Assembly (NCBI RefSeq): GCF_014145325.1
Contig: NZ_JACHTF010000008.1
Span: forward strand, 62,001-126,000
Source of the DNA: Marilutibacter spongiae
GTDB lineage: Bacteria; Pseudomonadota; Gammaproteobacteria; Xanthomonadales; Xanthomonadaceae
Direction: 5' to 3'
DNA length: 64,000 nt
Shown: piece by piece, positions 46,413-62,846 of the stretch
How the letters are laid out: each line of letters starts with the position of its first letter
Numbering within the stretch: position 1 is the stretch's first letter
The notes under the pieces: generated by a model
What the model was told of the DNA's origin: nothing
The model's database searches: none
What the model saw: the letters and a program-made list of their open reading frames with translations, nothing else
Program-made: the position numbers and the translations under genes

Positions 46413-47465
46413 CTAGTTCCTTGCAAGCCGTTGCAGTTGGTAGGCCTCACGCAGCCGCCATTGCATGGCCGCCACCACGGCGTGCATGAGCAGGAGGCGC
46501 CGATCGCTGCGTGCAGCACCCGCCTTCATCGCCAGGGCGGCATCGATGCCGGCCTCGTGGTAGGTCGCCAGCAATTGCACGCTGATTTCCTCGGCGCTTC
46601 GCGCCCGAGGCACCGGCTCATGGCCCAGCGCACGCACCATGTGCTCCGCGACGGACCATGTGGACCACGGGTTCTGGCCGGTCACCAGGCGCTCGTCGAC
46701 CACGGTGTTGTCCAGGTACACGGGGCCTTCGACGAAGCGCGCCCCCTGTCGCGACAGTTCGTCCTGCAACAGGTACGGGAACAGCTCGCGGGCATTTTCG
46801 ATCAGGAACAGTTCCTCTGCGTTGGTGAAGCCGGTGACCCACCGCCCCTGCAGCCAGGGACGGCCGGAGGCATCGCGGAGCCCGATCAGCGCCGCAGGCC
46901 CGTGGCAGACGGCACCGACCACGCCGCGAGGGGCGATTTCCGCCACGATGCGAGCGATGGCGGGGTTGCCGGGGAAGTCGAACATGGCGCCCTTTCCGCC
47001 GACGAAGTAGACGGCCTGGTACAGCGTTGGGTCCACCCCGGAGAGCGGGAGGGAATTGGCCAGCTTGTGTCGCGCACGTGCATCGTTGAGGAATGCGTAG
47101 TCGGCATCGCCGGTGTCGTCCTGGTCCAGCCTCATCGGAGGCTTGCCGCCAAGGGGACTGGCGATGTCGACCTCGTAGCCGTTGGCCAGGAACGTCCAGT
47201 AGGCCCGCGACAGCTCGGTCAGCTCGTAGCCGGCCTTCCTGCTGCTGTCGCCGATGAGGGGGGTGCTGGTGACGACGGCCAGGATCCGTCCTCGCTGCCC
47301 GGATGTCCGTGCGCGCAGGAAGGGCAGGTCGGCCGCATCCGCGTTCCGGTCCGCCTGCGGCTCGGATTCGAGATCGAGGCTTGCCACGTACGCCCAGCCG
47401 CCAAGCGCGAGTACCAGGCACAGGCCCACCGCCGCCAACGAGGCGATCCGTATCTTTCTCCACAT
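46413..47465 (-). CDS. Membrane-anchored DJ-1/PfpI (class I glutamine amidotransferase-like) protein
   Basis: A 350-residue protein with a single N-terminal helix (about 5-28) followed by a DJ-1/PfpI domain resembling Hsp31/YhbO-type glyoxalases and chaperones. The nucleophile elbow is VGAVCHGPAAL with Cys187 and His188, and acidic residues at 81 and 84 in GYELTEL could complete the site. A helical extension (about 280-350) follows the domain. Most family members are soluble; the anchor suggests a periplasm-facing or membrane-attached enzyme. It lies upstream of the two-component genes on the same strand. A methylglyoxal or protein-repair role is possible but unproven. Confidence 0.75.
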   Translation of the reverse strand: MWRKIRIASLAAVGLCLVLALGGWAYVASLDLESEPQADRNADAADLPFLRARTSGQRGRILAVVTSTPLIGDSSRKAGYELTELSRAYWTFLANGYEVDIASPLGGKPPMRLDQDDTGDADYAFLNDARARHKLANSLPLSGVDPTLYQAVYFVGGKGAMFDFPGNPAIARIVAEIAPRGVVGAVCHGPAALIGLRDASGRPWLQGRWVTGFTNAEELFLIENARELFPYLLQDELSRQGARFVEGPVYLDNTVVDERLVTGQNPWSTWSVAEHMVRALGHEPVPRARSAEEISVQLLATYHEAGIDAALAMKAGAARSDRRLLLMHAVVAAMQWRLREAYQLQRLARN

Positions 47466-47621: not shown

Positions 47622-48998
47622 TCAGCGGTGGGACGCCGCCGGGCGGCGTCTCATCAGGTAGATCACCGCGCCCACCGCGATCGCCACCGCGGCCGCGGCG
47701 AGGTTGCCCACCCCCGCGCTCGCGACCAGGGCCAGCGACACCAGCAGCGCGAGCACGGGGATCAGCGGGCCGCCGGGCAGGGCCAGGGCATTGGGACGAT
47801 CGCGATAGCGCTTCTGCAGGACGAGCAGCGACGCCGCGGTGCCGATGTAGCTGCACAGTCGCGCGACCACCGAGAGCAGCGCGAGATTGGCGAAGGCCTG
47901 CGAAACGCCGCTGCCCCCGAACTGCTGGCCCAGCACCAGGACGGTCGCGAGCACGCCGGTGACGATGATCGCGATGGTCGGGGTGCGGTAGCGCGGGTGC
48001 ACGCGCGAGAGTGCGGCCGGGCCATAGCCGTCGGCCGAGAGCGCGTAGAGGTAGCGCGGGCCGAACAGCATGGTGTTGCTGTTGCTGCCCAGGATCGAGA
48101 CTGCCGCGCCCAACGTCAGCAGTAGCGCGCCGGCGGGGCCGGCGAAGGTCTCGGCGGCGTCCGCCAGCGGCGAGCGGGACGCGGCGAGGTCGGGCACGGT
48201 GCCCTGGGCCACGACCTGCACGGCGACGTAGATCAGGGTCACCAGCACGATCATGGTGATCAGCGCGAACGGGACGTCGCGCCGGGGATTGCGGAACTCG
48301 CCCGCCGCGGCCGGGGTGTTCTCGAAACCGGCATAGGCGTAGAGCAGCAACAACGCGCCTTCGCCCAGCTTGTCGGTCGGCGGTGCGCCCATGGCCACGG
48401 CCTGCGACCAGTCGACGAAGAACGCGCCCACCGCGATGAAGAACAACAGCGGGACCAGCTTGGCCAGCACGAGGGCCACACCGGTGCGCGCGGCGGTGCG
48501 CACGCCGACCACGTTGATGTAGGTCAGGAAGGCGAGGGAGCCGACCACGACGGCGGTCCAGCCCCAGCCCTCGCCCGCGGGCGCCCAGAACTTGGACACC
48601 GCCAGCGCCAGGCCGCTGCCCAGGGCCGCGGCGGATGCCACGCGGGTCAGCCAGGTCATCCAGCCGACCTCGAAACCGATGAAGTCGCCGAACGCATCGC
48701 GGGCGTAGAGATAGCTGCCGCCGGCATCGTCGTAGTAGCTGCCGGCCTGGGCGTAGCACAGCACGAGCAGGCCGACGGCGACGCCTGCCAGCAATACCGC
48801 CCACAGGCTGGCCGGTCCCAGCAGCAGGGCCGTGCTGGCGGGCAGCAGGTAGATGCCGCTGCCGATGACGTCGTTGATCGACAGGCCCACGATCTGCCAG
48901 CGGCTGACCGCCCGCACCATGCCGGTGTCGTGGTCGATGCCGGGACCGGGTTCGCCCGTGGCCGGGTGGTCGACGGTCGGGCGAAGGGGGTCAGTCAT
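47622..48998 (-). CDS. APC-superfamily amino acid/peptide permease
   Basis: A 458-residue inner-membrane transporter with about 12 helices. The first-helix motif VIGSGIYLLPA is the unwound substrate-binding segment of the APC family, and YAYAGFENTPAAAGEFRNP the helix-6 region. The start at 48998 (MTDPLRPTVDH) overlaps the L,D-transpeptidase-fold gene by eight bases, so the two are coupled. Substrate cannot be derived from sequence. Position at the end of a murein-peptide gene cluster suggests import of an amino acid or dipeptide released from peptidoglycan. Confidence 0.85.
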   Translation of the reverse strand: MTDPLRPTVDHPATGEPGPGIDHDTGMVRAVSRWQIVGLSINDVIGSGIYLLPASTALLLGPASLWAVLLAGVAVGLLVLCYAQAGSYYDDAGGSYLYARDAFGDFIGFEVGWMTWLTRVASAAALGSGLALAVSKFWAPAGEGWGWTAVVVGSLAFLTYINVVGVRTAARTGVALVLAKLVPLLFFIAVGAFFVDWSQAVAMGAPPTDKLGEGALLLLYAYAGFENTPAAAGEFRNPRRDVPFALITMIVLVTLIYVAVQVVAQGTVPDLAASRSPLADAAETFAGPAGALLLTLGAAVSILGSNSNTMLFGPRYLYALSADGYGPAALSRVHPRYRTPTIAIIVTGVLATVLVLGQQFGGSGVSQAFANLALLSVVARLCSYIGTAASLLVLQKRYRDRPNALALPGGPLIPVLALLVSLALVASAGVGNLAAAAVAIAVGAVIYLMRRRPAASHR

Positions 48999-49815
48999 TC
49001 GATGGGTCCTTGGCGGCAGGCGGGGTGGACGTCGGGGCGGGCGGCAGCCGCGGCAGGTGCCACGGCGCCTGCAGCCGAGCGTAAGCAGCTTCGGGCAGCA
49101 GCACAAACACCGGCTGCGCCGCCGGGTCCAGCCAGTCGAGCAGGGCGGCCATCCGGCCGGCCGGCATGGCGGTGCAGCCGGCGGTGGCGACGTCCGCCGC
49201 CTTCCACACATGCGCGAAGATGCAACTGCCGGCCGGACTGCGGTTGCCGGGGTTGTGCTCGATCACGAAGCCTTGCGCGTAGCGGCCGTCGCCATCGGCA
49301 TGCAGGTCGCGCCGCATGGGCTCGGTCGAGCCCTCCACGGCCGCCGCGCCGACCTCGTCGGCGTCGACGATGCGGTTGTACAGCGGCGAGCCGGGCACGT
49401 CGATGCAGTAGTCGCTGGCCTGCATGGCCCGGTAGGACAGCGCGGTGTGCGCGTCGGCGGCGTATCCGAAGGCGTCGCCGATGCCGAAGATGCCGGCGGG
49501 GCTGCGACCGTCGCCCTCGCGCTTGCGCGTTCCGGCCTGGTCCGGGTGCAGGCCCAGGCCCCAGGCGCTTCCGGCGCGGCCAATGCGCACCGGCTCGGCC
49601 GCGGCGACCTGGCGCCAACCCGCAGCGTCCTTCTCGAAGCGCAGCATGCGCCCGCCATCGGCGTCCCAGTCGGCGGTGGCGACGACCACCATCTGCCGGG
49701 CCTGGGCCCAGGGCGTGGCGGCCTGTGCCGTCGCCGCCGTCAGCGCGAGGAGGACGCCGGCGAGGAGGGCGATGGGCACCTCAGGGATCGAGCATCTTCT
49801 GGACATGCTCCGCAC
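48991..49815 (-). CDS. Exported YafK/L,D-transpeptidase-fold protein
   Basis: A protein of up to 274 residues with an export signal (LLAGVLLALTAATAQA) and an L,D-transpeptidase-like catalytic domain. GDGRSPAGIFGIG is the typical entry motif; His202 and Cys214 in FAHVWKAADVATAGCTAMP form the catalytic pair. Members cross-link or cut peptide stems at diaminopimelate. Three starts are possible: ATG 49815, ATG 49806 (MSRRCS, with GGAG upstream and a positive N-region) and GTG 49779 immediately after the regulator's stop. I favour one of the ATGs because the signal needs the Arg pair. A Pro/Thr-rich tail follows the domain. Confidence 0.82.
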   Translation of the reverse strand: MRSMSRRCSIPEVPIALLAGVLLALTAATAQAATPWAQARQMVVVATADWDADGGRMLRFEKDAAGWRQVAAAEPVRIGRAGSAWGLGLHPDQAGTRKREGDGRSPAGIFGIGDAFGYAADAHTALSYRAMQASDYCIDVPGSPLYNRIVDADEVGAAAVEGSTEPMRRDLHADGDGRYAQGFVIEHNPGNRSPAGSCIFAHVWKAADVATAGCTAMPAGRMAALLDWLDPAAQPVFVLLPEAAYARLQAPWHLPRLPPAPTSTPPAAKDPSND

Positions 49816-50698
49816 TGTTCCGGTAGTGGTCGAGGTAGTCGTCCGAATGTTGGCACACCAGCACGATCACCAGGTCGAGCATGTGCTGCAGCGCGGCCTG
49901 GTAGAGCAGGGGTTCGACGTGGGCGTCGTCGTCGTGCGCGGACACCAGCAGCGCCGCGTCGGCATGCGCGCGCAATGGGTTGGCGCCGTGCCGGGTGACC
50001 GACACCGTCTTGCCGCGGCGGGCCCGGAACTGCCGGCTGACCTGGCACAGCTCCGGCTGGCGGCCATGTTCGGAGAACACGACCAGCACGTCGCCGGGGC
50101 CGGCCGAGCTGACGCTGGCGGCCATCAGCACGGGATCGGCGTGCTCGACGGTGGCGATGCCGATCAGCGACAGGCGCAGGCCCAGGCCACGCGCATGGAT
50201 GCCGTCCTGGCCGAGCCCGCAGATGAAGACGCGGTCGGCATCGACGATGGCCTGCACGATCCTGTCGATCTGCTCGAGCGGGTTGAGCAGTCGGGTCTCC
50301 TGCTCGGCGCGGGCCTTGCCGCGCCAGAGCGCGTCGGCCAGCGCCACGTGCGGTGACACGTCGCGCGTGGGCGCGGGGCGGCTGGCGCCGTCAGCGGTCT
50401 CGCGCGCGAGCGCCTCGCCGATGCAGAACTTCAGGTCGGGGTAGCCCTTGAACCCGAGCTTCTGGCTGAACTTGACGACGCTGGACTGGCTGATGCCCAG
50501 CGCACTGGCCAGCTGCTGCGAGGAGTAGTCGCGCAGCAGGTGGGCGTTGTCGAGCAGGAAGTCGGCGATCCGTCGCTCGATCGCCGACATGCGGTCGCGC
50601 TCGGCCCGGACCTTGAGCAGGGGCGATGCGTCCGCGGCGCCGGCGACGGGGGCGTCCGCGGCGGGTGCCTCCTGCGGGGGCGGGGCGCCGCGGCTCAT
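49781..50698 (-). CDS. RpiR/MurR-type transcriptional regulator with SIS domain
   Basis: A 305-residue regulator. After a Pro/Ala-rich start, an RpiR helix-turn-helix spans about 38-110 (LASALGISQSSVVKFSQKLG). A SIS sugar-phosphate isomerase-like domain follows (about 140-270), with VFICGLGQDG and VLVVFSEHGRQPEL. The usual SxSGxT sugar-phosphate loop is altered to FSEHGRQ, so the ligand may be unusual. It overlaps the epimerase stop by four bases (ATGA). MurR, the best-known relative near murein genes, responds to MurNAc 6-phosphate; here that is only an analogy. Confidence 0.87.
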   Translation of the reverse strand: MSRGAPPPQEAPAADAPVAGAADASPLLKVRAERDRMSAIERRIADFLLDNAHLLRDYSSQQLASALGISQSSVVKFSQKLGFKGYPDLKFCIGEALARETADGASRPAPTRDVSPHVALADALWRGKARAEQETRLLNPLEQIDRIVQAIVDADRVFICGLGQDGIHARGLGLRLSLIGIATVEHADPVLMAASVSSAGPGDVLVVFSEHGRQPELCQVSRQFRARRGKTVSVTRHGANPLRAHADAALLVSAHDDDAHVEPLLYQAALQHMLDLVIVLVCQHSDDYLDHYRNSAEHVQKMLDP

Positions 50699-51792
50699 TC
50701 GGGCAGCATCTCCAGGCCCCGCACCTCGCGGATGCCCAGGCCCGGGGCGTCCACGATCGAGATTTCCGATTCGTTGAACTGCACGCCGCCGTCGACCGGG
50801 TCGTACCGGCAAAGCGACGGGCCGTCCAGGTCGACCTTGGTGATCGCGTCGGCCTTGGCCACCGCCAGGTGGACCGCGGCGGCGACGCTGATGCTGGTCT
50901 CGATCATGCAGCCGATCATGCATTCCACGCCGTACAGCGAGGCGATGTCGGCGATGCGGATCGCGTTCGACAGGCCGCCGGTCTTCATCAGCTTGATGTT
51001 GATGATGTCGGCGGCGTGCATCTTGATCAGGTCGATCACCTCGGTCGGACCGAACACGCTCTCGTCGGCCATCACCGGCGTGTGGACGCGGTCGGTCACG
51101 TACTTCAGGCCGCGGATGTCGTGCGCCTTGACCGGTTGCTCGAGCAGTTCCAGCTCGACCCCGGCGTCCTCGAGCGCCTGCATGGCGAAGACCGCCTGCT
51201 TGGCGGTCCAGCCCTGGTTGGCGTCGAGGCGGAGCAGGGCGCGGCCTTCGACCGCGGCATGGACGGCCTTGACCCGCTCGATGTCCAGGCCGATGTCCTT
51301 GCCGACCTTGATCTTCAGCGACTCGAAGCCGCGGTCGACCGCCGCCAGCGAGTCGGCCACCATCTTGTCGATGTAGTCGACGCTGATGGTGATGTCGGTG
51401 GTGATGACCGGGTCGCCGCCGCCGAGCAGGCGGTAGAGGGGCGCGTCGTAGAGTTGGCCGAACAGGTCGTAAAGCGCGATCTCCACCGCGGCCTTGGCGC
51501 TGAAGTTGCGTTCCAGCGCGGTCTGCACCAGGCGCGTGTTGCGGTTGAGGTCGGCGATCTCCGCGCCGAGCAGGCGCGGACGGATGTAGCGCCGGATGGC
51601 TTCGATGATCGAGCCATGGGTGTCGCCGGTGATGACCGCCGTCGCGGCGGCCTCGCCGTGGCCCACGTGCCCGGTGTCGGTCCGCACCAGCACGATGATG
51701 TCCTCGACGGTGTCGACCGTGCGCAGGGCGGTCTTGAACGGCGTCTTCAGCGGTACGCGCAGCATGCCGACCTGGATGTCGGTGATCTTCAT
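50695..51792 (-). CDS. L-Ala-D/L-Glu (dipeptide) epimerase
   Basis: An enolase-superfamily enzyme of 365 residues, expected to convert L-Ala-D-Glu from peptidoglycan to L-Ala-L-Glu so that ordinary peptidases can use it. The residues fall at the positions known for B. subtilis YkfB: base pair Lys160 and Lys162 (SLKIKVG), metal ligands Asp190, Glu218 and Asp243, and second base Lys267 (NIKLMK). The dipeptide-recognition motif is Asp321-Leu-Asp323. It is cytosolic (no signal) and preceded by an 88-base gap from the NlpC/P60 gene. Other dipeptide specificities exist in the family, so Ala-Glu is probable rather than proven. Confidence 0.9.
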   Translation of the reverse strand: MKITDIQVGMLRVPLKTPFKTALRTVDTVEDIIVLVRTDTGHVGHGEAAATAVITGDTHGSIIEAIRRYIRPRLLGAEIADLNRNTRLVQTALERNFSAKAAVEIALYDLFGQLYDAPLYRLLGGGDPVITTDITISVDYIDKMVADSLAAVDRGFESLKIKVGKDIGLDIERVKAVHAAVEGRALLRLDANQGWTAKQAVFAMQALEDAGVELELLEQPVKAHDIRGLKYVTDRVHTPVMADESVFGPTEVIDLIKMHAADIINIKLMKTGGLSNAIRIADIASLYGVECMIGCMIETSISVAAAVHLAVAKADAITKVDLDGPSLCRYDPVDGGVQFNESEISIVDAPGLGIREVRGLEMLPE

Positions 51793-51880
51793 CGGGTTTC
51801 CTCGTGGCGGCCATCCGCGGTCGGGTGGGCACGGCGGCCGGGCCGTTGCGCGAAAGATCCGGTATCCGCGGGCCAGGGTC

Positions 51881-53329
51881 TCATGGGCGGATCTTCTGGA
51901 TGCTGTAAATGCGGTCGACGAGGCTCGCGTCCTCGCCCGACTGCAGGGGTTCGAGCGGCGTCACCGATACGCCGTTGAGCACGATCCGCCGCAGTCCGCC
52001 ATCGGCGTCGCGGACACTGACGCCGGTGACGTCGTGGATCACGTACGGGGCCCCTTCATACTGGCCGATCACCATCATCACGTGGCCCGGGATGTAGACC
52101 AGGTCGCCGGCGTGCAACTGGCGCAGCACCGCGAGCCGCGATTGGCGGTCGTCGCCCTCGTCGAAGCGGACCGTGTTGAAGACCGGACTGACGCCCTGCG
52201 CGCTCGTGTTGCGCGGCAACTGGACGCCGAAGGCGCGGTAGACCTCGGATACGAAGCCGCTGCAGTCGCGTGCGTCGTAGGCGTGGCCCCAGCCGTAGCG
52301 CTCGCCGAGGAACTTGAAGCCCTGTTCGATGACGCCCGCCGGCGTCAGCGGCAGGTAGGCGGCGGCGACGTCCTGGCTTCGCGGCAGCAGCGCCGGCGTG
52401 AAGCGCAGCGTACCGTCGTCCTCGCGCACCGGCAGCTGGACCACGTGGCCCGCGTAGGCCGCCTGGCCGTTGACCGGCGCGCCCGCCGGCCAGTCCGCGA
52501 GCAGCGGCACGCGCACGCCCATGTCCAGTTGCAGGTCGGACACCCGGGGCGCTTCCGGCGTATGCACGGTGCGCGCGGTGGCGCCGGTGACCACGACGTA
52601 GGGCGTCTTGCGGCCGTAGCCGAGCACGTCCGCGCGCGGACCGACCGCGACACGGGACTTGCGGATCCAGGCGGCATAGCGCGGGCTCACCGCGAACCAC
52701 CATTCGCCGTCCCGGCTCTCGTGCAGGATCGCCAGCGGCGTGCCCGGGAACAGGGCCGTCTCCTGGAAGCGGTCGATGTCGGTGTCGTCCGGGTCGCTGA
52801 ATACCCGGACGTCGGTGGGGAAGCTGCGCATGTCGGCGCGATGGACGACCAGGCCCCAACGGGTATCGACCCTGTCCGGCAGACGCTCCAGGCCGAGGCT
52901 CGGTGCCAGCGTGTCCAGTCCCGCGAACGGCGCGCCCCCGGCGATGAACAGCGGGCGGCCGGGAGGCGAGGACAGGCGCCGTACGAGCGCTTCGATCTCC
53001 GCGCTCGGCATCGACGCGGGAAAGCGCCCGAGGTCGTGCATCGAGCCGTCCTCGGCGAACAGACGCGCGTTGAGTCGTGCAATGGCCTGCGCGTCGAGCA
53101 CGACGCGGTCGGGCGCGTCCAGGCGCGAGGTCCAGAAATCCGCGGAGAGCTGCGCGAGCTCGACGCCGGGCACCCCGGTGCCGTCGGCGGCGGGCTCGCG
53201 TGCCATCGCGGCGGTCGTGGCCAGCAGGCCCAACCCGGCCAGCGCGGCGAGCAGGGTACCCAGGCCGGCGCGGACGCGGCGGGGCTTCCGGGACAGGAGC
53301 ATCGGCATGGCAACACGCATCTTCGGCAT
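51881..53329 (-). CDS. Exported NlpC/P60 murein peptidase with SH3-like domains (YkfC-like)
   Basis: A cysteine peptidase of about 482 residues from the ATG at 53329 (alternatives at 53320 and 53308). A basic, hydrophobic signal (RKPRRVRAG... to ATTAAMA) precedes two SH3b-like regions and the NlpC/P60 catalytic domain. Cys356 lies in RDCSGFVSEVY, with His416 (GHVMMVIG) and His432 (YVIHD). B. subtilis YkfC, with the same domain order, cleaves after D-Glu in murein peptides to release L-Ala-D-Glu. That enzyme is cytosolic; this one is exported, so the dipeptide would be produced in the periplasm. It is first in the leftward cluster. Confidence 0.87.
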   Translation of the reverse strand: MPKMRVAMPMLLSRKPRRVRAGLGTLLAALAGLGLLATTAAMAREPAADGTGVPGVELAQLSADFWTSRLDAPDRVVLDAQAIARLNARLFAEDGSMHDLGRFPASMPSAEIEALVRRLSSPPGRPLFIAGGAPFAGLDTLAPSLGLERLPDRVDTRWGLVVHRADMRSFPTDVRVFSDPDDTDIDRFQETALFPGTPLAILHESRDGEWWFAVSPRYAAWIRKSRVAVGPRADVLGYGRKTPYVVVTGATARTVHTPEAPRVSDLQLDMGVRVPLLADWPAGAPVNGQAAYAGHVVQLPVREDDGTLRFTPALLPRSQDVAAAYLPLTPAGVIEQGFKFLGERYGWGHAYDARDCSGFVSEVYRAFGVQLPRNTSAQGVSPVFNTVRFDEGDDRQSRLAVLRQLHAGDLVYIPGHVMMVIGQYEGAPYVIHDVTGVSVRDADGGLRRIVLNGVSVTPLEPLQSGEDASLVDRIYSIQKIRP

Positions 53330-53414
53330 CCCCGTTTGATCGGTCCAGCGGCCGTCCGACGGCCGGTCCGGCAGCGCCTGGAATCCCGGCGTCCGACCGG
53401 GTCCTCGGTTCCAG

Positions 53415-53442
53415 AGAATACTTATTTCGATCAAAGTATCAA
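53415..53442 (-). promoter_or_regulatory. Candidate promoter of the murein-peptide cluster
   Basis: On the minus strand TTGATA (53442-53437) and TATTCT (53420-53415) are spaced by 16 bases, about 86 bases before the chosen NlpC/P60 start. It lies in an AT-rich island (53411-53460) that contrasts with the surrounding GC-rich sequence. Confidence 0.5.
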
Positions 53443-53452
53443 TTCGGAATAA
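53422..53452. promoter_or_regulatory. Palindromic operator candidate
   Basis: Inverted arms TTATTTCGAT (53422-53431) and TTCGGAATAA (53443-53452) match at eight of ten positions, with an 11-base centre. The site overlaps the -35 and spacer of the leftward promoter and lies 41 bases before the rightward transglutaminase-like gene. The RpiR-type regulator in the cluster is the obvious candidate to bind it. Confidence 0.5.
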
Positions 53453-53492
53453 ATTATTGACCGCCTTCCCGTCTGCGTGTTACACCGATGTC

Positions 53493-55022
53493 ATGTCCAG
53501 CCGGCCGGGGGGCCGCGTCGTGGCGAATGACCCAAGCACACCTAGCGCGATCACGTCCGGCCTGCGCACGCAGGCGCGGCGGCTGGGATGCGGCGCGCTG
53601 CTGGGCTGGAGCCTGCTGCTGCCCGCGAGCCCGGGTCCTCGCGACACCGTACGTGAAGTCGTCGCCCGGGTCGACGCAGGGCGTTTCGCCGAGGCCGAGC
53701 AGCGTATCGGCGAGGTCCTGGCCGATGGCGCCACCCCGGCGGGGGTGCGCACCGCGCTGGCCTTCGAGCGCGAACGCATGCGCCGCATCCTGCTCGACTT
53801 CCCGCTCGACGAGCCGGCCACGCAGGAGCGCCTGCGCAAGGAGATTCCCGACCTGCAGGCGGGCGAGTTCGCGGCGTGGTCGGCCTCGGGCGCCCTCGAG
53901 CACCTCGACATCGATGGCCGGCCACGCTACTTCGCGCGTGCGGTCCCCAACCTGTTCCGGGTGAGTGCGGAAGCCGCGATGCGTCGACGGGAAACGCCCG
54001 TGCCGCACAACGGTCCCATGGAGGCGCTGGGCCCGCACCACGTCGAGGTGCGCGACGCCGCGCTGGCGACGGGACGGGCCGGCGTGGCGCCACGGCGCAT
54101 CCGCGTGGAGCAGTCGCTGGTGGTGGACGCGGACGCGGTACCGGCAGGGGAAACGCTCAGGGCCTGGATCCCCTATCCCCGGGCGATCCCCGGCCAGCAG
54201 GACGACATCCGCCTGCTGGGCAGCGATCCCGTCCAGCCGGTCGTGGCGCCGGCGTCCGCGCTCCAGCGCACCGTCTACCTGGAGAAGCAGGCCGTGGCGG
54301 GCGTGCCGACCGAATTCTCGGTGAGTTACGAACTGACCGTGCGCGGCCAGTACCACGCGATCGATCCCGAGCGCGTCAGCCGCGTGCTCTTGCCCCCGGA
54401 ACTGCTCGAGTTCACCGCCGAGCGTCCCCCGCACATCGTGTTCACCGATGCCTTGCGGCGCTTCTCGAAGCAGGTCGTGGGCGACGAGCAGAACCCGGCG
54501 CGCATCGCACGCAGGCTGTTCGCGGCCGTCGACCGGATCCCCTGGGCCTCGGCGCGCGAATACTCGACGATCTCCAACATCAGCGCGCACGCGCTGCGCA
54601 CCGGGCATGCCGACTGCGGACAACAGACCCTGCTGCTGATGGCGCTGCTCCGCCTCAACGGCATCCCCAGCCGCTGGCAGTCGGGCATGGTCTATTCCGA
54701 CGGCGACTACGACAACCTGCACGACTGGGGCTGGCTCTACCTGGCGCCCTACGGCTGGGTGCCGATGGACGTGACCACCGGCCTGCTCGACAGCCCGGAC
54801 GAGGGCCTGCGCGATTTCTACTTCGGCGGCCTGGACGCCTATCGGATCGCCTTCAACGACGATTATTCGCGGGAGTTCTTCCCGCCCAAGGAGCATTTCA
54901 GGTCGGAGACCGTGGATTCGCAGCGCGGCGAAGTGGAGTGGCTGGGGGGCAACCTCTACTTCGACCAGTGGGACTACCGCTTCTCGGCGAAGGTCCTGCC
55001 GGGCAACGCCACCGCGCACTAG
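53493..55022 (+). CDS. Exported transglutaminase-like cysteine protein
   Basis: A protein of about 509 residues with an N-terminal hydrophobic export segment (about 30-45) and a transglutaminase-core domain. Cys375 is in HADCGQQTLLLMALLR, His410 in NLHDWGWLYL and Asp426 in WVPMDVTTG, giving a full Cys-His-Asp triad. The first 300 residues are not recognised by me: a helical part followed by beta-rich sequence with AWIPYPRAIPGQQ. Bacterial members are usually peptidases or amide hydrolases, not cross-linkers. Start ATG 53493 is preferred over TTG 53457 and GTG 53520. It is divergent from the NlpC/P60 gene and followed after 48 bases by a TonB-dependent receptor. Confidence 0.75.
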   Translation: MSSRPGGRVVANDPSTPSAITSGLRTQARRLGCGALLGWSLLLPASPGPRDTVREVVARVDAGRFAEAEQRIGEVLADGATPAGVRTALAFERERMRRILLDFPLDEPATQERLRKEIPDLQAGEFAAWSASGALEHLDIDGRPRYFARAVPNLFRVSAEAAMRRRETPVPHNGPMEALGPHHVEVRDAALATGRAGVAPRRIRVEQSLVVDADAVPAGETLRAWIPYPRAIPGQQDDIRLLGSDPVQPVVAPASALQRTVYLEKQAVAGVPTEFSVSYELTVRGQYHAIDPERVSRVLLPPELLEFTAERPPHIVFTDALRRFSKQVVGDEQNPARIARRLFAAVDRIPWASAREYSTISNISAHALRTGHADCGQQTLLLMALLRLNGIPSRWQSGMVYSDGDYDNLHDWGWLYLAPYGWVPMDVTTGLLDSPDEGLRDFYFGGLDAYRIAFNDDYSREFFPPKEHFRSETVDSQRGEVEWLGGNLYFDQWDYRFSAKVLPGNATAH

Positions 55023-55070
55023 CAGGGACGCCACCTACCTCAACCACAGCAACCAGTTCGGGGGATACAC

Positions 55071-58000
55071 ATGTACGGCACGGCATTGCGGAAGAGTGCG
55101 TTATTCGTGGCCATGGGGATCGGCCTGGCGTCGATGGCGCCGGGGATCGTCCACGCCCAGAACGTGAACGGCGCCATCGCCGGCCGCGCCAACGCCGGGG
55201 ACCGGATCACCGTCACCAATACCGAGACGGGCCTGTCGCGATCGGTCGCCGCCGGCGCGGACGGCAGCTACCGGTTGTCGCAGCTGCCGGTGGGTAGTTA
55301 CTCGCTGCAGGTCAGCCGCGATGGCCAGCCGCTCGGCGAACCGGTCGAGGTCGGCGTGTCGCTGGGCAACGCGACGACCATCAACCTGGGCAGCGACGGC
55401 GTGGTCAGCCTCTCGGCGGTCCAGGTGATCGGTTCGCGGGTGATCTCGCCGGTCGACGTCACCTCGACCGAGTCGGCCACCAACATCACCGCCGAGGAGA
55501 TCGAGCGCCTGCCCGTGGAGCGCGACGTCGCGTCGGTGGCCCTGCTGGCCCCCGGCGTCGCGGGCGGCAGCGCGGGCTTTGGCGGCATTTCCTTCGGCGG
55601 CTCTTCGGTCGCCGAGAACGCGTTCTACATCAACGGCCTCAACGTCACCGACTTCTACAACCGCGTCGGCTTCTCGCAGGCGCCGTTCGACTTCTACCAG
55701 GAGTTCCAGGTCAAGACCGGCGGCTACTCCGTCGAGTACGGGCGCACCACCGGCGGCGTGGTCAACGCGATCGCCAAGTCGGGCAGCAACGACTTCCACT
55801 ATGGCGCCAAGCTGGTGCTGGAACCGCGGGACTGGCAGTCCTCGGCCCGCGACAGCTACCTCGATGGCGACCGCTACCTCACGCGCAGCAAGGACAGTTC
55901 GGACCTGACCACCCTCAATGCCTGGGCCTCGGGCCCGATCATGAAGGACCGCCTGTTCTTCTTCGCGATGTACGAAGCCCGCGACGTCAAGCCCGAGAAC
56001 ACCAGCAACACCGGCACCAGCTTCACCCGCGGCGACTCCGACAACGGCTTCTGGGCGACGACGCTCGACTGGCAGCTGACCGACAACAACCTGCTCAGCC
56101 TGATGGCGTTCTCGAACGAGAACCGGGTCGACAACGCCACCTATGCCTACGACTTCGACGCCGGCGCGCGGGGCGACAAGCTCAGCGAGGCCTATTCCGA
56201 GTCCGGTGGCGACAACTGGGCGCTCACCTGGACGTCCCACTTCACCGACACCTTGTCGATGAAGCTCATGCACGGCCGCAACGAGCGCAACAGCGTGGCT
56301 GCCTCACCCAACGACGGCGATTGCAACTACGTGACCGCCGGCGCCGGGGTGGTCGACCCCGGGGTGCCGCTGGGCTGCACCAACAACGCCACCATCTACG
56401 ACCGCAACGACCAGCGCGAGCAGACCCGCGCCGATTTCGAGTGGTCACTGGGCGACCACCTGCTGCGATTCGGGCTGGATCGCGAGACCAACACCTCCGA
56501 CCTGAGCCAGGACTACGCCGGTCCCGGCGGCATCCAGTACAACGTGTACTCGACCACGCCCGGCGCACAGATATCCGGCGCGGGCATCGTGCCGCCCGGC
56601 TACTTCGCCTATGTTCGCGCACGCCGCTATTCGATCTTCGGCGAATTCGAGAGCCGCAACGAGGCGTTCTACCTCGAGGACAACTGGTCGGTCACCGACA
56701 ACCTGGTGCTCAACCTCGGCATCCGAAACGAGACCTTCGACAACCGCGACGCCGAGGGCCGAACCTACATCGAGATGGACGACATGTGGGCACCGCGCGC
56801 CGGCTTCGCCTGGGACATGAAGGGCGACGGCACGACCAAGCTGTTCGGCAACGTCGGCCGCTATTTCCTGCCGGTCGCCAACGTCATCAACATCAAGCAG
56901 GGCGGGGCGCTGCTGGACGAGCGCACCTACTACGGCTTCGACGGTTGGGACATCCAGGAACGCGACGGCGTGCAGTTCGCGGTGCCGATCCTCGGCACCC
57001 AGTTCGGCTTCGACAACAGCCAGGGCGACGGCACCGTCGGCGACCTGCGTGCCGAGGTCGACGCCGACATGGACCCGGTCTACCAGGACGAACTGATCCT
57101 GGGCTTCCAGCAGCAGATCAACTCGACCTGGTCATGGGGCGTGCGCGGCACCTACCGCAAGCTCCACAACGCCATCGACGACATCAACCTGACCGCCACC
57201 CACTGCGGGCGCATCGCCAGCCGCTGGGTCATGGCCAATCCGGGCGAGGACGTGACGGTCTGGGGCGACACCGATTGCGACGGCGTGGACGACGGTTACC
57301 TGACCGTCGATACCTCGAAGATGGGTTACTGGACCGAGTCCGACAACTACGAGTTCGTCAACGGCGAATGGGAGTACGTGGATTCGACGCCGACCGGACA
57401 GCGCGGCTGGGTCAAGCCCAAGCGCAGCTACAAGGCGCTGGAGTTCCAGGTCGATCGCGCGTGGGACGGCAAATGGGCCTTCAACGCTGCCTATACCCTG
57501 TCCTGGAACGAGGGCAACGCCGAGGGCCCGGTCAACACCGACACGAACTTCGGCGACACCGGGCGCACCGAGAACTTCGACGATCCCTTCGTCAACTACC
57601 GGGGCGACGGACCGCTGGCGAACGACCACCGACACCAGATCAAGCTGCGCGGCAGCTATGCCTTCAACGACAACTGGAGCATGGGCGCCACGCTGGACGC
57701 GCGTTCGGGTGGGCCGATCACCGCCTTTGGCGTGGGCAACCCCTACAACTGGAAGAGCTACCACAGCTACTTCATCTGCGTGGAAAACTGCACCCCGCCC
57801 GAGGGCGCGCAGGAAGGCGATACCTGGAGCACCGCCGACCGCGTGTTCGAGCATTCCCCGCGCGGCGGCGAAGGCAACATGCCCTGGATCATCGACGTGG
57901 GAATGAGCCTGGGCTATGAGCGGCAGTTCTCGTTCGGTACCTTCGAAGCGCGGCTGTCGGTCTACAACCTGTTCAATCGGCAGGAGCCGGTCTGGGTTTA

Positions 58001-58106
58001 CCAGGACCTGGAACCGGGCGTGGGCGACCGCGACGAGTACTTCGGCAAGGAGCGCTTCCTGCAGTCGCCGCGCTACGGCCAGCTGATGCTCGCATGGCGC
58101 TACTGA
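55071..58106 (+). CDS. Oar-like TonB-dependent outer-membrane receptor
   Basis: A 1011-residue receptor: signal peptide (1-29, GIVHA/QN), then a carboxypeptidase-regulatory-like beta domain (about 30-110) typical of Oar/SusC-type receptors. A plug domain follows (about 130-240, with INGLNVTDFYN and VEYGRTTGGVVNAIAKSG), then a long 22-strand-type barrel ending in an aromatic residue (QLMLAWRY). No TonB box is obvious. A Cys pair in the late loop (YFICVENCTPPEG) may form a disulfide. In xanthomonads such receptors take up complex nutrients, including peptides; the ligand here is unknown. It lies between a transglutaminase-like protein and a serine hydrolase on the same strand. Confidence 0.9.
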   Translation: MYGTALRKSALFVAMGIGLASMAPGIVHAQNVNGAIAGRANAGDRITVTNTETGLSRSVAAGADGSYRLSQLPVGSYSLQVSRDGQPLGEPVEVGVSLGNATTINLGSDGVVSLSAVQVIGSRVISPVDVTSTESATNITAEEIERLPVERDVASVALLAPGVAGGSAGFGGISFGGSSVAENAFYINGLNVTDFYNRVGFSQAPFDFYQEFQVKTGGYSVEYGRTTGGVVNAIAKSGSNDFHYGAKLVLEPRDWQSSARDSYLDGDRYLTRSKDSSDLTTLNAWASGPIMKDRLFFFAMYEARDVKPENTSNTGTSFTRGDSDNGFWATTLDWQLTDNNLLSLMAFSNENRVDNATYAYDFDAGARGDKLSEAYSESGGDNWALTWTSHFTDTLSMKLMHGRNERNSVAASPNDGDCNYVTAGAGVVDPGVPLGCTNNATIYDRNDQREQTRADFEWSLGDHLLRFGLDRETNTSDLSQDYAGPGGIQYNVYSTTPGAQISGAGIVPPGYFAYVRARRYSIFGEFESRNEAFYLEDNWSVTDNLVLNLGIRNETFDNRDAEGRTYIEMDDMWAPRAGFAWDMKGDGTTKLFGNVGRYFLPVANVINIKQGGALLDERTYYGFDGWDIQERDGVQFAVPILGTQFGFDNSQGDGTVGDLRAEVDADMDPVYQDELILGFQQQINSTWSWGVRGTYRKLHNAIDDINLTATHCGRIASRWVMANPGEDVTVWGDTDCDGVDDGYLTVDTSKMGYWTESDNYEFVNGEWEYVDSTPTGQRGWVKPKRSYKALEFQVDRAWDGKWAFNAAYTLSWNEGNAEGPVNTDTNFGDTGRTENFDDPFVNYRGDGPLANDHRHQIKLRGSYAFNDNWSMGATLDARSGGPITAFGVGNPYNWKSYHSYFICVENCTPPEGAQEGDTWSTADRVFEHSPRGGEGNMPWIIDVGMSLGYERQFSFGTFEARLSVYNLFNRQEPVWVYQDLEPGVGDRDEYFGKERFLQSPRYGQLMLAWRY

Positions 58107-58156
58107 TCTGCCCGGCCCCCCGCGCGCCGTTCGCGCCGCCGCGGGGGGCGTGGGGC

Positions 58157-59755
58157 ATGCGTGCCGGCGTCGCCGGTAGCGGGGCCTCGCGCCGGCTGAC
58201 GGCGTTCCTCATGTCGGTGGCGATCGCGTGCGTGCCCGCGGTGGCGCTCGCGCAGGGGGCGACGGGCGCACGCGACCCTGCCGCCCTGGCGCGGATATTC
58301 GACCAGGCCATGGCACGCTACGCGTTGCCCGGGATGGCGATGGGCGTGATCGAGGACGGCAAGGTCGCCTGGGTGCGCACGGGCGGCGAGACGGTCGCCG
58401 GTTCCGGCGATCCCGTGCAGCCTTCCACGCTCTTCAAGATCGCCTCCAATAGCAAGGCCATGACCGCGTCGCTGCTGGCGCGCCAGGTCGACGCGGGCCT
58501 GCTGGCCTGGGACGATCCGGTCGTCCGCCACCTGCCCACGTTTCGCATGCACGACCCGTGGGTCACGCGGGAGATGCAGGTGCGCGACCTGCTGGTGCAC
58601 AACTCCGGCCTGCCGGAGGGCGCCGGCGACCTGATGCTTTGGCCCGAGCCCAACCGTTTCGGCCGCGACGACATCATCGCCGGCCTGGCCCACCTGGAGC
58701 CCGAACGCAGCTTCCGGTCGGGCTACGCCTACGACAACCTCATGTACGTGGTGGCGGGCGAGGTCGCCGCCGCCGTCGGCGGCGCGTCCTACGAGACGCT
58801 GCTGCGGCGCGAGGTCTTCGCGCCGCTCGGCCTCGACGCCTGTCGCGTCGGCCAATGGGAGCGCGCCGCGGCGGGCAGCGTCGCCCAGCCGCACATGCAT
58901 GCCGACACGGGCAACGTCGCCATCCGCACCGACGGCGACACGGTGCCCGCGATCACCTCCGCCGCCGCCGGCGGCATCCGCTGCAACCTCGACGACATGC
59001 TGGCGTGGGCGCTGAACTGGCTCGACCCGACGCCCGCGCAGCGCGAGTGGCTGTCGCAGGCGCAGCGCGACGCGATGTGGACCGCGCATACCCCGCTGCC
59101 GGTGTCTTCGCGCAATCGGGAATGGGATGGCACCCATGTCCGCGCCTATGGCTATGGCTGGCGCCTGGCCGACGTGGACGGCGAGTGGACCGTGTCGCAC
59201 ACCGGCACGCTGTCGGGCATGTACTCGGTGCTGATGCTGTTGCCGGACCGGAAGTCCGGCTTCGTGGTCATGATCAATGGCGAAGGCAGCACCGCGCGCA
59301 CGGTGCTGACCGCCGCCCTGCTCAAGTATTTCACCGACCCGGGATCGGGCGCGGACGTGAGTGCGTTCGCCGAGCGCCTGGAAAGCGAGCGCACCGCGCC
59401 TTCGGCGTCGCGGGTGCCGGATACCACGTCCCGCCGGCCGATCGATGCCACGTTCCTGGGGGCGCGGCTGGGGCGATACCGCGACCCCTGGTTCGGCGAG
59501 GTGTCGGTATGCACCGTCGGCGACGGCGTGCGCTTCCGTTCGGTGATGTCGCCCTTGCTGTCGGGACGGGTGATGCGCGTGGGCGAGCGTGCTTTGGTCG
59601 ACTGGGACGACGACACCGTCGACCTCGAGGCCTGGATGGACTTCCACGACGAAGGCGCCGGCACGCGCATGACGATGGCCAAGCTCGACCCCGATGGCGA
59701 CTTCAGCTCGGACTACGAGGACCTGGACTTCCGGCGAATCGGTGACTGCGAGTAG
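58157..59755 (+). CDS. Exported class C beta-lactamase-like serine hydrolase
   Basis: A 532-residue hydrolase with a signal peptide (RRLTAFLMSVAIACVPAVALAQ). The SxxK motif is Ser97-Asn-Ser-Lys100, YxN is Tyr192-Asp-Asn194 (YAYDNLMYV), and the KTG-equivalent is His348-Thr-Gly. A DUF3471-type C-terminal domain (about 430-530) follows. Family members include D-aminopeptidases, DD-peptidases and esterases; no evidence favours true beta-lactam resistance. An earlier in-frame ATG at 58094 would overlap the receptor gene and put 21 extra residues before the signal; ATG 58157 follows a GGGG-rich ribosome site. It converges with dinB with a nine-base gap. Confidence 0.85.
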   Translation: MRAGVAGSGASRRLTAFLMSVAIACVPAVALAQGATGARDPAALARIFDQAMARYALPGMAMGVIEDGKVAWVRTGGETVAGSGDPVQPSTLFKIASNSKAMTASLLARQVDAGLLAWDDPVVRHLPTFRMHDPWVTREMQVRDLLVHNSGLPEGAGDLMLWPEPNRFGRDDIIAGLAHLEPERSFRSGYAYDNLMYVVAGEVAAAVGGASYETLLRREVFAPLGLDACRVGQWERAAAGSVAQPHMHADTGNVAIRTDGDTVPAITSAAAGGIRCNLDDMLAWALNWLDPTPAQREWLSQAQRDAMWTAHTPLPVSSRNREWDGTHVRAYGYGWRLADVDGEWTVSHTGTLSGMYSVLMLLPDRKSGFVVMINGEGSTARTVLTAALLKYFTDPGSGADVSAFAERLESERTAPSASRVPDTTSRRPIDATFLGARLGRYRDPWFGEVSVCTVGDGVRFRSVMSPLLSGRVMRVGERALVDWDDDTVDLEAWMDFHDEGAGTRMTMAKLDPDGDFSSDYEDLDFRRIGDCE

Positions 59756-61442: not shown

Positions 61443-62846
61443 TCAGACCAGACCGGTCGCGTAGAACAGCCCGATGATGAAGAACACCGCCAGCGTCTTG
61501 ATGATCGTGATCGCGAAGACGTCCTTGTAGGCCTGCCGGTGCGTGAGACCGGTGACCGCCAGCAGGGTGATCACCGCGCCATTGTGGGGCAGGGTGTCCA
61601 TGCCGCCGGATGCCATCGCGGCGACCCGGTGCAACACTTCCATGGGGATGCCGGCGGCATTGGCGTTGGCGATGAAGGTGTCGGCCATCGCCGCCAGGGC
61701 GATGCTCATGCCGCCCGAGGCCGAGCCGGTAATGCCGGCGAGCGCGGTGACCGTCACCGCTTCGTTGACCAGCGGGTTGGGGATCGAGCCCAGGGCGTTG
61801 GCCACGATGAGGAAGCCCGGCAGGGCGGCGATCACCGCGCCGAAGCCGTATTCCGACGCGGTGTTCATGGAGGCGAGAAGGGCCCCACCGACGGCGCTCT
61901 TGCTGCCCTCGGCGAAGCGCGTGGCGACTGGCTTCCAGGCGAGTGCGATCACGGCCAGGATGCCGACGAGCAGCGCCGCCTCGACCGCCCAGATCGCCGC
62001 GATCTTCGAGACCTCCTGAACCACGGGGGCCGCGTCGCCGACCACCGCCGGGTCGAAACTGTGGGTCTCGCCGTACATGCGCGGGATCCATAGCGTGAAC
62101 AGCTTGTTGGACACGCCCACCAGCACCAGCGGCAGGATCGCCAGCCAGGGATTGGCGAGGCGATCGTCGGTGAATGGCGCCGGCTCGTTGACCAGGCTCG
62201 CCGGGTCGCCGTAGCCCTCGCCGGCCCGGGCGGCCTTGCGCCGGCGCGACTCCAGGTAGGTCATGCCGAGCACCAGTATGAACACGCCGCCCAGCGTGCC
62301 CAGCACCGGCGCGGCCCAGGAGTTGGTGCCGAAGAAGGCGGTGGGGATGATGTTCTGGATCTGCGGCGTGCCGGGGAGCGCATCCATGGTGAAGGTGAAG
62401 GCGCCCAGCGCGATCGTGCCGGGGATCAGGCGCTTGGGGATGTCGCTCTGGCGGAACAGTTCGGCCGCGAACGGGTAGACGGCGAACACCACCACGAACA
62501 GCGACACGCCGCCGTAGGTGAGCAGGGCGCAGACCACGACGATGGACAGCATCGCGCGCTGGGCCCCGAGCAGCCTGATCGTCGCGGCGACGATCGACTT
62601 CGAGAACCCCGACAGCTCGATCAGCTTGCCGAAGATCGCCCCCAGCAGGAACACCGGGAAATAGAGCTTGATGAAGCCGACCATCTTGTCCATGAACAGG
62701 CCGGTGAACATGGGCGCGACCAGGCTGGGGTCGGTCAGCAGCACGGCGCCGAGGGCGGCGATCGGCGCGAACAGGATCACGCTGTAGCCGCGATAGGCGA
62801 CGAACATCAGGAAGCACAGCGCCCCCAGTACGATCAGAAACTCCAT
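61443..62846 (-). CDS. GntP-family proton symporter
   Basis: A 467-residue inner-membrane permease with about 12-14 helices of the GntP (gluconate/hydroxy-acid:H+) family. GSASGGMSIALAAMA and ASGGMDTLPHNGAVITLL are typical of the hydroxybutyrate/citrate-like subgroup, as is FTMDALPGTPQIQNIIPT. An internal charged loop lies near 205-235. The likely substrate is a small organic acid; sugar acids cannot be excluded. It is divergent from a TonB-dependent receptor, 195 bases away, suggesting a shared nutrient. Confidence 0.88.
   Translation of the reverse strand: MEFLIVLGALCFLMFVAYRGYSVILFAPIAALGAVLLTDPSLVAPMFTGLFMDKMVGFIKLYFPVFLLGAIFGKLIELSGFSKSIVAATIRLLGAQRAMLSIVVVCALLTYGGVSLFVVVFAVYPFAAELFRQSDIPKRLIPGTIALGAFTFTMDALPGTPQIQNIIPTAFFGTNSWAAPVLGTLGGVFILVLGMTYLESRRRKAARAGEGYGDPASLVNEPAPFTDDRLANPWLAILPLVLVGVSNKLFTLWIPRMYGETHSFDPAVVGDAAPVVQEVSKIAAIWAVEAALLVGILAVIALAWKPVATRFAEGSKSAVGGALLASMNTASEYGFGAVIAALPGFLIVANALGSIPNPLVNEAVTVTALAGITGSASGGMSIALAAMADTFIANANAAGIPMEVLHRVAAMASGGMDTLPHNGAVITLLAVTGLTHRQAYKDVFAITIIKTLAVFFIIGLFYATGLV

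Follow-up and report, generated by a model that had tools for sequence, protein, structure and literature searches.

What would a bacterium gain from keeping a TonB-dependent receptor (TBDR), several exported enzymes and a cytoplasmic L-Ala-D/L-Glu epimerase-type protein side by side in a single locus? The question is raised by a cluster of Marilutibacter spongiae lying in the window, a 64,000-nucleotide stretch of DNA (positions 62,001 to 126,000 of contig NZ_JACHTF010000008.1, forward strand). The eight genes of the cluster, conserved in Lysobacter-like bacteria, form a leftward operon and a divergent rightward operon and probably constitute a regulated system, reaching from the outer membrane to the cytoplasm, for using the peptide moiety of peptidoglycan. 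This reading is built on gene content, synteny, active-site residues, heuristically scored export signals and operator conservation, all read from sequence. Murein-peptide scavenging had already been proposed as the purpose of the locus in the original prediction and is upheld by the identity and residues of the epimerase, by the kinship of the exported peptidase to gamma-D-Glu-diaminopimelate (DAP) endopeptidases and by the accessory genes of related loci. The five-gene unit then envisaged was too small, as it overlooked the two genes that follow TGL, the transglutaminase-like gene, in the rightward operon, one for a candidate outer-membrane step and one for a hydrolase.

Organization of the two operons

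The leftward operon encodes an NlpC/P60 peptidase (NLP), the epimerase-type enzyme (EPI), an RpiR-like regulator with a SIS domain (SIS), a protein of putative L,D-transpeptidase fold (LDT) and an amino-acid permease (APC), all five present at the place originally assigned to them (Table 1). As had been claimed, the junctions are tight, each being an overlap or a gap of under 90 bases: 88 bases separate NLP from EPI, and overlaps of 4, 35 and 8 bases follow at EPI/SIS, SIS/LDT and LDT/APC, lengths that depend on the start codons chosen by the analyst. The rightward operon starts at 53493 with the transglutaminase-like gene (TGL), whose divergent orientation had been recognized correctly, and continues with the TBDR gene after 48 bases and with a serine hydrolase gene (BLA) that overlaps the latter by 13 bases.

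Export was scored with a simple heuristic, the highest 12-residue hydrophobicity mean near the N terminus, values above 1.8 being considered signal-like. In the window NLP (2.43), LDT (2.67) and BLA (2.36) exceed this threshold, TGL falls just below it (1.70) and EPI (1.47) and SIS (0.92) remain under it; among relatives it is exceeded by 111/113 NLP, 71/75 LDT, 88/92 TGL and 49/56 BLA proteins, by 1/120 EPI and by 0/83 SIS. The signal peptide that had been read on the NlpC/P60 peptidase is supported by this score in the window and in nearly all its relatives.

Conservation and spread

Two sets of loci were compared, 40 from the organism's own family and at least 80 from a wide genome scan (69 of them at least 18 kb long); the sets share organisms and were pooled (120 loci) only for operator, motif and signal counts, the operator counts including also the window (121 loci). 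Every locus was located through its epimerase, so clusters devoid of it could not appear in either set. A separate search for TGL across 198 family genomes found this gene in 91 of them, each of which also has an epimerase ortholog (91/91); the two genes lie less than 8 kb apart in 89/91 genomes and on different contigs in the other two. The epimerase has a match at E 0.001 in 127 of the 198 genomes; in 124 a close ortholog is present, at E 2e-87 or lower.

The order NLP-EPI-SIS-LDT, with TGL-TBDR-hydrolase as its divergent counterpart, is retained across many genera, and the arrangement of the genes is not due to chance. In the 69 long loci the core consists of EPI (69), NLP (68), SIS (68), TBDR (61), TGL (58), LDT (56) and BLA (48), while the SDF-family carrier (44), VanX (33), LysA (26), DUF819 (24), M19 (20), APC (17) and Amidase_2 (11) are variable. 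The 40 family loci contain NLP (38), LDT (34), TBDR (30, one of them weak), SIS (29), TGL (27), BLA (25, some being lost to the end of the stretch) and APC (13). Of the five-gene order that was originally to be sought in other genomes, the first four members are retained and APC is optional. Clusters lacking the peptidase, which would have spoken against the prediction, are few (L045 and L046 among the 40 family loci, L115 among the at least 80 others). L045 and L046 carry epimerase orthologs (67% identity), and no other gene of the block was found within their 19-kb stretches.

The wide-scan loci belong to Pseudoxanthomonas, Lysobacter (including L. enzymogenes and L. antibioticus), Stenotrophomonas, Xanthomonas, Luteimonas, Rhodanobacter, Dyella, Luteibacter and others. 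The same scan yielded loci in Pseudidiomarina (L131), Lacimicrobium (L136), Rheinheimera (L143) and an unclassified gammaproteobacterium (L142), and a class-wide search returned matches at E 1e-100 in 4/369 genomes, all of the organism's own family, indicating that the spread outside the family is patchy. A prolyl oligopeptidase-type S9 peptidase gene (L131:11555-13633) stands beside the Pseudidiomarina locus.

The epimerase and the peptidase

EPI is, by its sequence, an L-Ala-D/L-Glu epimerase-type enzyme. It is 48.6% identical (172/354 aligned residues) to the B. subtilis L-Ala-D/L-Glu epimerase (chain 1jpm), its best match in the PDB, and shares with it R24, K160, K162, D190, E218, D243, K267, D321 and D323, which are invariant in 13 aligned sequences (the window and 12 of the 40 family loci). 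Beyond the two catalytic lysines, the roles of these residues are those that we presume for the active site. According to PMC5808125, the catalytic lysines of YkfB are K162 and K268. The NCBIfam equivalog cut-offs for this epimerase are not reached (247.3 versus 500 bits and 118.4 versus 343 bits).

NLP was originally regarded as a YkfC-type peptidase, and this assignment is rejected on two grounds, a published residue test and the presence of an N-terminal clip domain. Specifically, the position of Asp256 in B. cereus YkfC (BcYkfC) is occupied by Asn in the window and in all 34 rows of an alignment of the window with 33 of the 77 usable wide-scan frames. Moreover, the motif is readable in 107/113 NLP frames, of which 106 have Asn and one Asp; five of the six unreadable frames (L070, L131, L136, L142, L143) display Asn in the alignment. 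The sole Asp belongs to L118, a Rhodanobacter metagenome bin. C356, H416, H432, Y218 and N374 are invariant in the same 34 sequences. The SH3b1 counterpart of BcYkfC Tyr118 is a Tyr in all 34, three residues before the SH3b Trp, in a region where the profile alignment is weak. The structure model of the window protein aligns to the four-domain DvLysin over residues 48-482 and to YkfC only from residue 157; its best fold matches are gamma-D-Glu-DAP endopeptidases, and it has the clip, SH3b1, SH3b2 and NlpC/P60 domains with Cys-His catalytic residues that characterize the DvLysin/PnpA fold.

The remaining exported proteins and the receptor

LDT scores just under the YkuD cut-off (22.6 versus 23.4 bits), and its H202 and C214, which we take to be the His and Cys of the YkuD motif, are invariant in 20 aligned sequences (19 of 46 and the window). 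The triad of TGL (C375, H410, D426) is invariant in 29 (28 of 64 and the window). The TGL structure model (pLDDT 87.6) has its closest match in a putative Cytophaga cysteine protease (3isr, E 1.2e-14); transglutaminases and the pseudomurein endoisopeptidase PeiP (E 0.004) match it more weakly. A cell-wall peptide bond is a possible target. TBDR exceeds the cut-offs of Plug (38.2 bits) and TonB_dep_Rec (38.1 bits).

The carrier slot and the accessory genes

The original prediction made the APC permease the importer of the pathway. In relatives APC is optional (17/69), SDF usually occupies the slot (44/69), and an NhaC-type carrier (PF03553) lies near the loci of Pseudidiomarina and Lacimicrobium instead. 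Among the 56 wide-scan loci with LDT, the next identified gene after it is SDF in 37 and APC in 16; both carriers occur together in 1/69 loci and neither in 9/69. On a quick epimerase tree the transporter state changes at least 4 times (59 rows). As the slot is filled by different carriers, the APC class does not define the system, and APC was discarded as a defining part; the slot itself probably serves for the import of a small product. SDF has its best score to the Glu/Asp symporter GltP, below the cut-off.

A DUF819 membrane protein (e.g., L028:6492-7649) is an additional gene in 24/69 loci, mostly between NLP and TGL, and its surroundings hint at a transport role for some product of the stem peptide. 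LysA is present in 17/24 loci with DUF819 and in 9/45 others (Fisher 6e-5, kinship ignored); on the tree, the association reduces to 4 independent pairs, for which a sign test is uninformative, and a role of DUF819 as a DAP carrier is a guess.

The variable enzymes, identified by scanning one representative of each family, comprise a D-Ala-D-Ala dipeptidase (PF01427, VanX-type), the DAP decarboxylase LysA (TIGR01048, 451.6 bits; cut-off 297.9), an M19 dipeptidase and Amidase_2, and an alanine racemase lies between BLA and NLP in Pseudidiomarina (L131). Judging from their families, we assume that the decarboxylase acts on DAP, the D-Ala-D-Ala dipeptidase and the racemase on the D-Ala end, the amidase on the bond between N-acetylmuramic acid (MurNAc) and L-Ala, and M19 on mixed dipeptides. 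Each accessory family would then fit a bond or a product of the stem peptide, which supports stem-peptide catabolism. On the epimerase tree (69 rows) the least numbers of changes are 10 for VanX, 7 for LysA, 6 for M19, 10 for DUF819 and 7 for the amidase. In a whole-genome control, PF01427 has exactly one gene in 30/41 genomes and none in 11, and this gene lies less than 20 kb from EPI in 27/30. The LysA of the locus is, in 10 genomes picked for having it (with G000, G158 and G144 added as genomes without it), an addition to a longer, probably bifunctional genomic copy.

Two Rhodanobacter loci (L083, L087) unite TGL, LysA, the hydrolase, VanX and the amidase with no match to TBDR. In L041 (781-5479) and similar loci a piperidine-6-carboxylate dehydrogenase gene, with pyrD- and murB-like genes recognized by eye, follows the carrier; this proximity of lysine catabolism to the DAP decarboxylase may be due to chance.

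The regulator and its candidate tandem operator

SIS exceeds the cut-offs of HTH_6 (71.6 bits) and SIS (46.5 bits) and is not MurR proper (92.9 bits against an equivalog cut-off of 408). Moreover, MurNAc-6-P is disfavoured as its ligand, as no MurQ, the MurNAc-6-P etherase, scores above the cut-off in the genome. The divergent region contains two operator-like sites, O1 and O2, the latter extending into TTGACC, a -35-like hexamer towards TGL; a promoter scan returned only a leftward promoter, and the rightward -10 element is poor by eye. The pair recurs in a register of 30-32 bases in 99/121 loci, with a spacing of exactly 31 in 93 (85 distinct sequences), once four of the 103 pairs first detected were excluded for their spacings (20, 20, 46 and 60). 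Weak pairs with 5 mismatches are found in L131 (spacing 31) and L136 (spacing 30), and 40 loci with shuffled bases (one shuffle each, keeping base content only) yielded none. O2, the stronger half of the pair, has a single occurrence in the 3.63-Mb genome when up to one mismatch is allowed, at this locus. The pair and the SIS gene (either strand) occur together in 97 of 120 loci, SIS without the pair in 10, the pair without SIS in 1 and neither in 12 (Fisher 7e-10, kinship ignored); in the single pair-only locus (L135) the contig end cuts the SIS side. The simplest reading of these sequences is that SIS would repress both operons through O1-O2.

Proposed mechanism and alternatives

For the proposed system we infer all substrates, all transport steps and the repression with its ligand as follows. 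TBDR would import cell-wall fragments into the periplasm, where the exported TGL, BLA, LDT and NLP would trim and cut them, with NLP cleaving between gamma-D-Glu and DAP. A small product, most likely L-Ala-gamma-D-Glu, would then cross the inner membrane through a carrier (APC in this genome, SDF or others in relatives), and EPI would convert it to L-Ala-L-Glu for ordinary peptidases to split. Lastly, the RpiR-like SIS protein would bind to O1-O2 and hold the two operons repressed until the substrate is signalled by a ligand in the cytoplasm. A more specific form of this scheme is proposed tentatively, with a little less than even confidence: a TonB-dependent cell-wall-peptide locus with active outer-membrane uptake, a lysin-type NLP that accepts L-Ala still attached to MurNAc, an exchangeable carrier (APC, SDF or NhaC, with DUF819 added) and one dedicated RpiR repressor. 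Within it, an NLP pocket for free L-Ala that retains Tyr and has Asn in place of Asp could accept the MurNAc-joined residue.

Several points weigh against this scheme. By the published residue rule NLP would not be expected to act on free stem peptides, and it may leave L-Ala-D-Glu on MurNAc, in which case an amidase would be needed; Amidase_2 lies near the locus in just 11/69 loci, a count that covers the locus neighbourhood only. Genes for VanX, LysA, M19 and amidase are all absent from the block in the window, and its whole genome, one of the 11/41, has no PF01427 match. To our knowledge, no APC, SDF or NhaC carrier transports the L-Ala-D-Glu dipeptide. Oar-like TBDRs are numerous, and the substrate of this one cannot be read from its sequence. 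No protein of the locus has a known activity. Finally, ordinary recycling exists without the locus, as judged from AmpG (448.5 bits, cut-off 350) and Mpl (602.8 bits, cut-off 388.7) encoded elsewhere in the genome, where no MurQ was found above the cut-off. The position of AmpG and Mpl elsewhere makes the locus an addition to recycling, which fits scavenging.

The alternative that survives best, possible but judged somewhat improbable, divides the work otherwise: NLP would cut sugar-bound muropeptides, AmpG would import sugar-L-Ala-D-Glu, AmpD would free the dipeptide inside the cytoplasm for EPI, and the APC, SDF, NhaC and DUF819 carriers would import DAP, D-Ala or Glu. The Asn of NLP, the presence of AmpG, the likeness of SDF to GltP (though below the cut-off) and LysA in 26/69 loci all agree with it, as does the cleavage of muropeptides by DvLysin, EcgA and PnpA (PMC7860986). 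Conversely, the Tyr linked to the recognition of free L-Ala is invariant in the 34 aligned NLP sequences, and the carrier slot lies within the epimerase operon, beside LDT.

Self-recycling or remodelling, in which the exported enzymes act on the bacterium's own wall, the locus recovers turnover peptides from the periplasm, and TBDR and the regulator serve another peptide, is unlikely. NLP, LDT and BLA do look exported, and their fold families include enzymes that remodel the own wall; however, TBDR and TGL are associated with the epimerase, AmpG and Mpl already attend to that task, and 71/198 family genomes have no epimerase match at E 0.001, so that the epimerase is dispensable. Still less probable is general scavenging of peptides or proteins with an epimerase for diverse dipeptides: peptide-uptake loci, too, contain Oar-like TBDRs, transglutaminase-like proteins and serine hydrolases, and the relatives of EPI include other solved dipeptide epimerases, some of which have other specificities, but EPI is nearest to the Ala-Glu enzyme and retains R24, D321 and D323, and the VanX, LysA and MurNAc amidase families indicate the cell wall. 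That the genes are unrelated neighbours with no common function is hardly credible, being contradicted by their conserved synteny, co-occurrence and shared operator.

Boundaries of the locus

Farther out, the genes for PfpI, a histidine kinase, a response regulator, DinB and a permease had no match in the at least 80 wide-scan loci, which delimits the conserved unit to approximately 47622-59755; most of these outer genes are present in L025, a close relative of the same genus. The DJ-1/PfpI-type gene (46413-47465) lies directly downstream of APC, encodes a signal-like N terminus by eye and is likewise unmatched in the wide-scan loci.

Table 1. Genes and operator sites of the locus (window coordinates)
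Feature	Position	Strand	Description
APC	47622..48998	-	amino-acid permease, PF13520/PF00324; AA_permease_2 above Pfam cut-off; inner-membrane carrier slot
LDT	48991..49815	-	predicted exported YkuD-like protein (putative L,D-transpeptidase fold); signal-like N terminus
SIS	49781..50698	-	RpiR/MurR-like regulator; HTH_6 and SIS (Pfam)
EPI	50695..51792	-	L-Ala-D/L-Glu epimerase-type enolase-superfamily enzyme, predicted cytoplasmic; MR_MLE above Pfam cut-off
NLP	51881..53329	-	predicted exported four-domain NlpC/P60 peptidase, DvLysin/PnpA type; NLPC_P60 and SH3_6 above Pfam cut-offs
O1	53416..53427		first tandem operator site, GAATAnnTATTC-like; overlaps the -10 element of the predicted leftward promoter (53442-53415)
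O2	53447..53459		second site, GAATAAATTATTG; starts 31 bases after the start of O1
TGL	53493..55022	+	transglutaminase-like cysteine hydrolase, Transglut_core; signal-like N terminus in relatives
TBDR	55071..58106	+	TonB-dependent receptor, Oar-like type; CarboxypepD_reg, Plug, OMP_b-brl_4; position conserved
BLA	58094..59755	+	predicted exported serine hydrolase, beta-lactamase/AmpH fold, PF00144; position conserved

Significance and comparison with known systems

If the proposed utilisation system holds, it would account for the use of other bacteria's walls by Lysobacter-like predators and Stenotrophomonas-like bacteria, and predatory Lysobacter and relatives could feed on the walls of their prey; it would also assign substrate classes to a DUF819 group, a TGL family and a TBDR group. 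Its carrier slot accommodates transporters of unrelated classes. The recycling of murein is well established, and the new element would be the active, TonB-dependent uptake of external fragments. In the open-licence papers searched we found no description of the locus, nor of such uptake combined with stem-peptide enzymes and one regulator.

The exported first step, presented originally as the novelty, is not one, as Xu et al. 2010 (PMC2954226) already proposed an exported YkfC with dipeptide import for B. cereus. As in ykfABCD of B. subtilis and ykfBC of B. cereus, the Ala-Glu epimerase adjoins an SH3b-NlpC/P60 peptidase, and, as in B. cereus, the signal peptide is on the peptidase and not on the epimerase; the same source describes the ykfBC pairing in a Gram-negative, Bacteroides thetaiotaomicron (YkfC-type BT_1314, 4r0k, with its epimerase neighbour). 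Compared with the ykf systems, the peptidase here belongs to the lysin type, carries Asn at the Asp256 position and has an additional N-terminal clip domain, and TBDR, TGL, the hydrolase, LDT and the RpiR regulator are added. Among the identified genes of the block, which cover part of the flanks, neither a Dpp/Opp binding protein nor an ABC transporter was found; the carriers seen are APC, SDF, NhaC-like and DUF819. Compared with DvLysin (3m1u), PnpA (6sqx) and EcgA, the lysin-type peptidase of this locus is joined by an epimerase and by a proposed import system, and in alignments its SH3b1 domain has the Tyr of the YkfC type, where DvLysin has Ala and PnpA Thr.

The proposed chemistry, from tripeptide to L-Ala-D-Glu and L-Ala-L-Glu, is that of the E. 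coli MpaA-YcjG pathway and AmpG recycling (PMC2954226). AmpG and Mpl are encoded at other places in the genome studied here. The E. coli pathway differs in that it is cytosolic, relies on a peptidase of unrelated kind and involves no TBDR. In Xanthomonas carbohydrate utilisation loci, hydrolases, a carrier and a regulator stand with the TBDR in one locus. These loci resemble ours in dedicating a TBDR to the scavenging of a polymer (PMC1790865), whereas the enzymes here would be directed to cell-wall peptides instead of plant carbohydrates. Murein-peptide use is an ordinary idea, rightly guessed in the original prediction, and takes here a larger and better supported form: TonB-linked and singly regulated, its peptidase being of lysin type and its carrier exchangeable.

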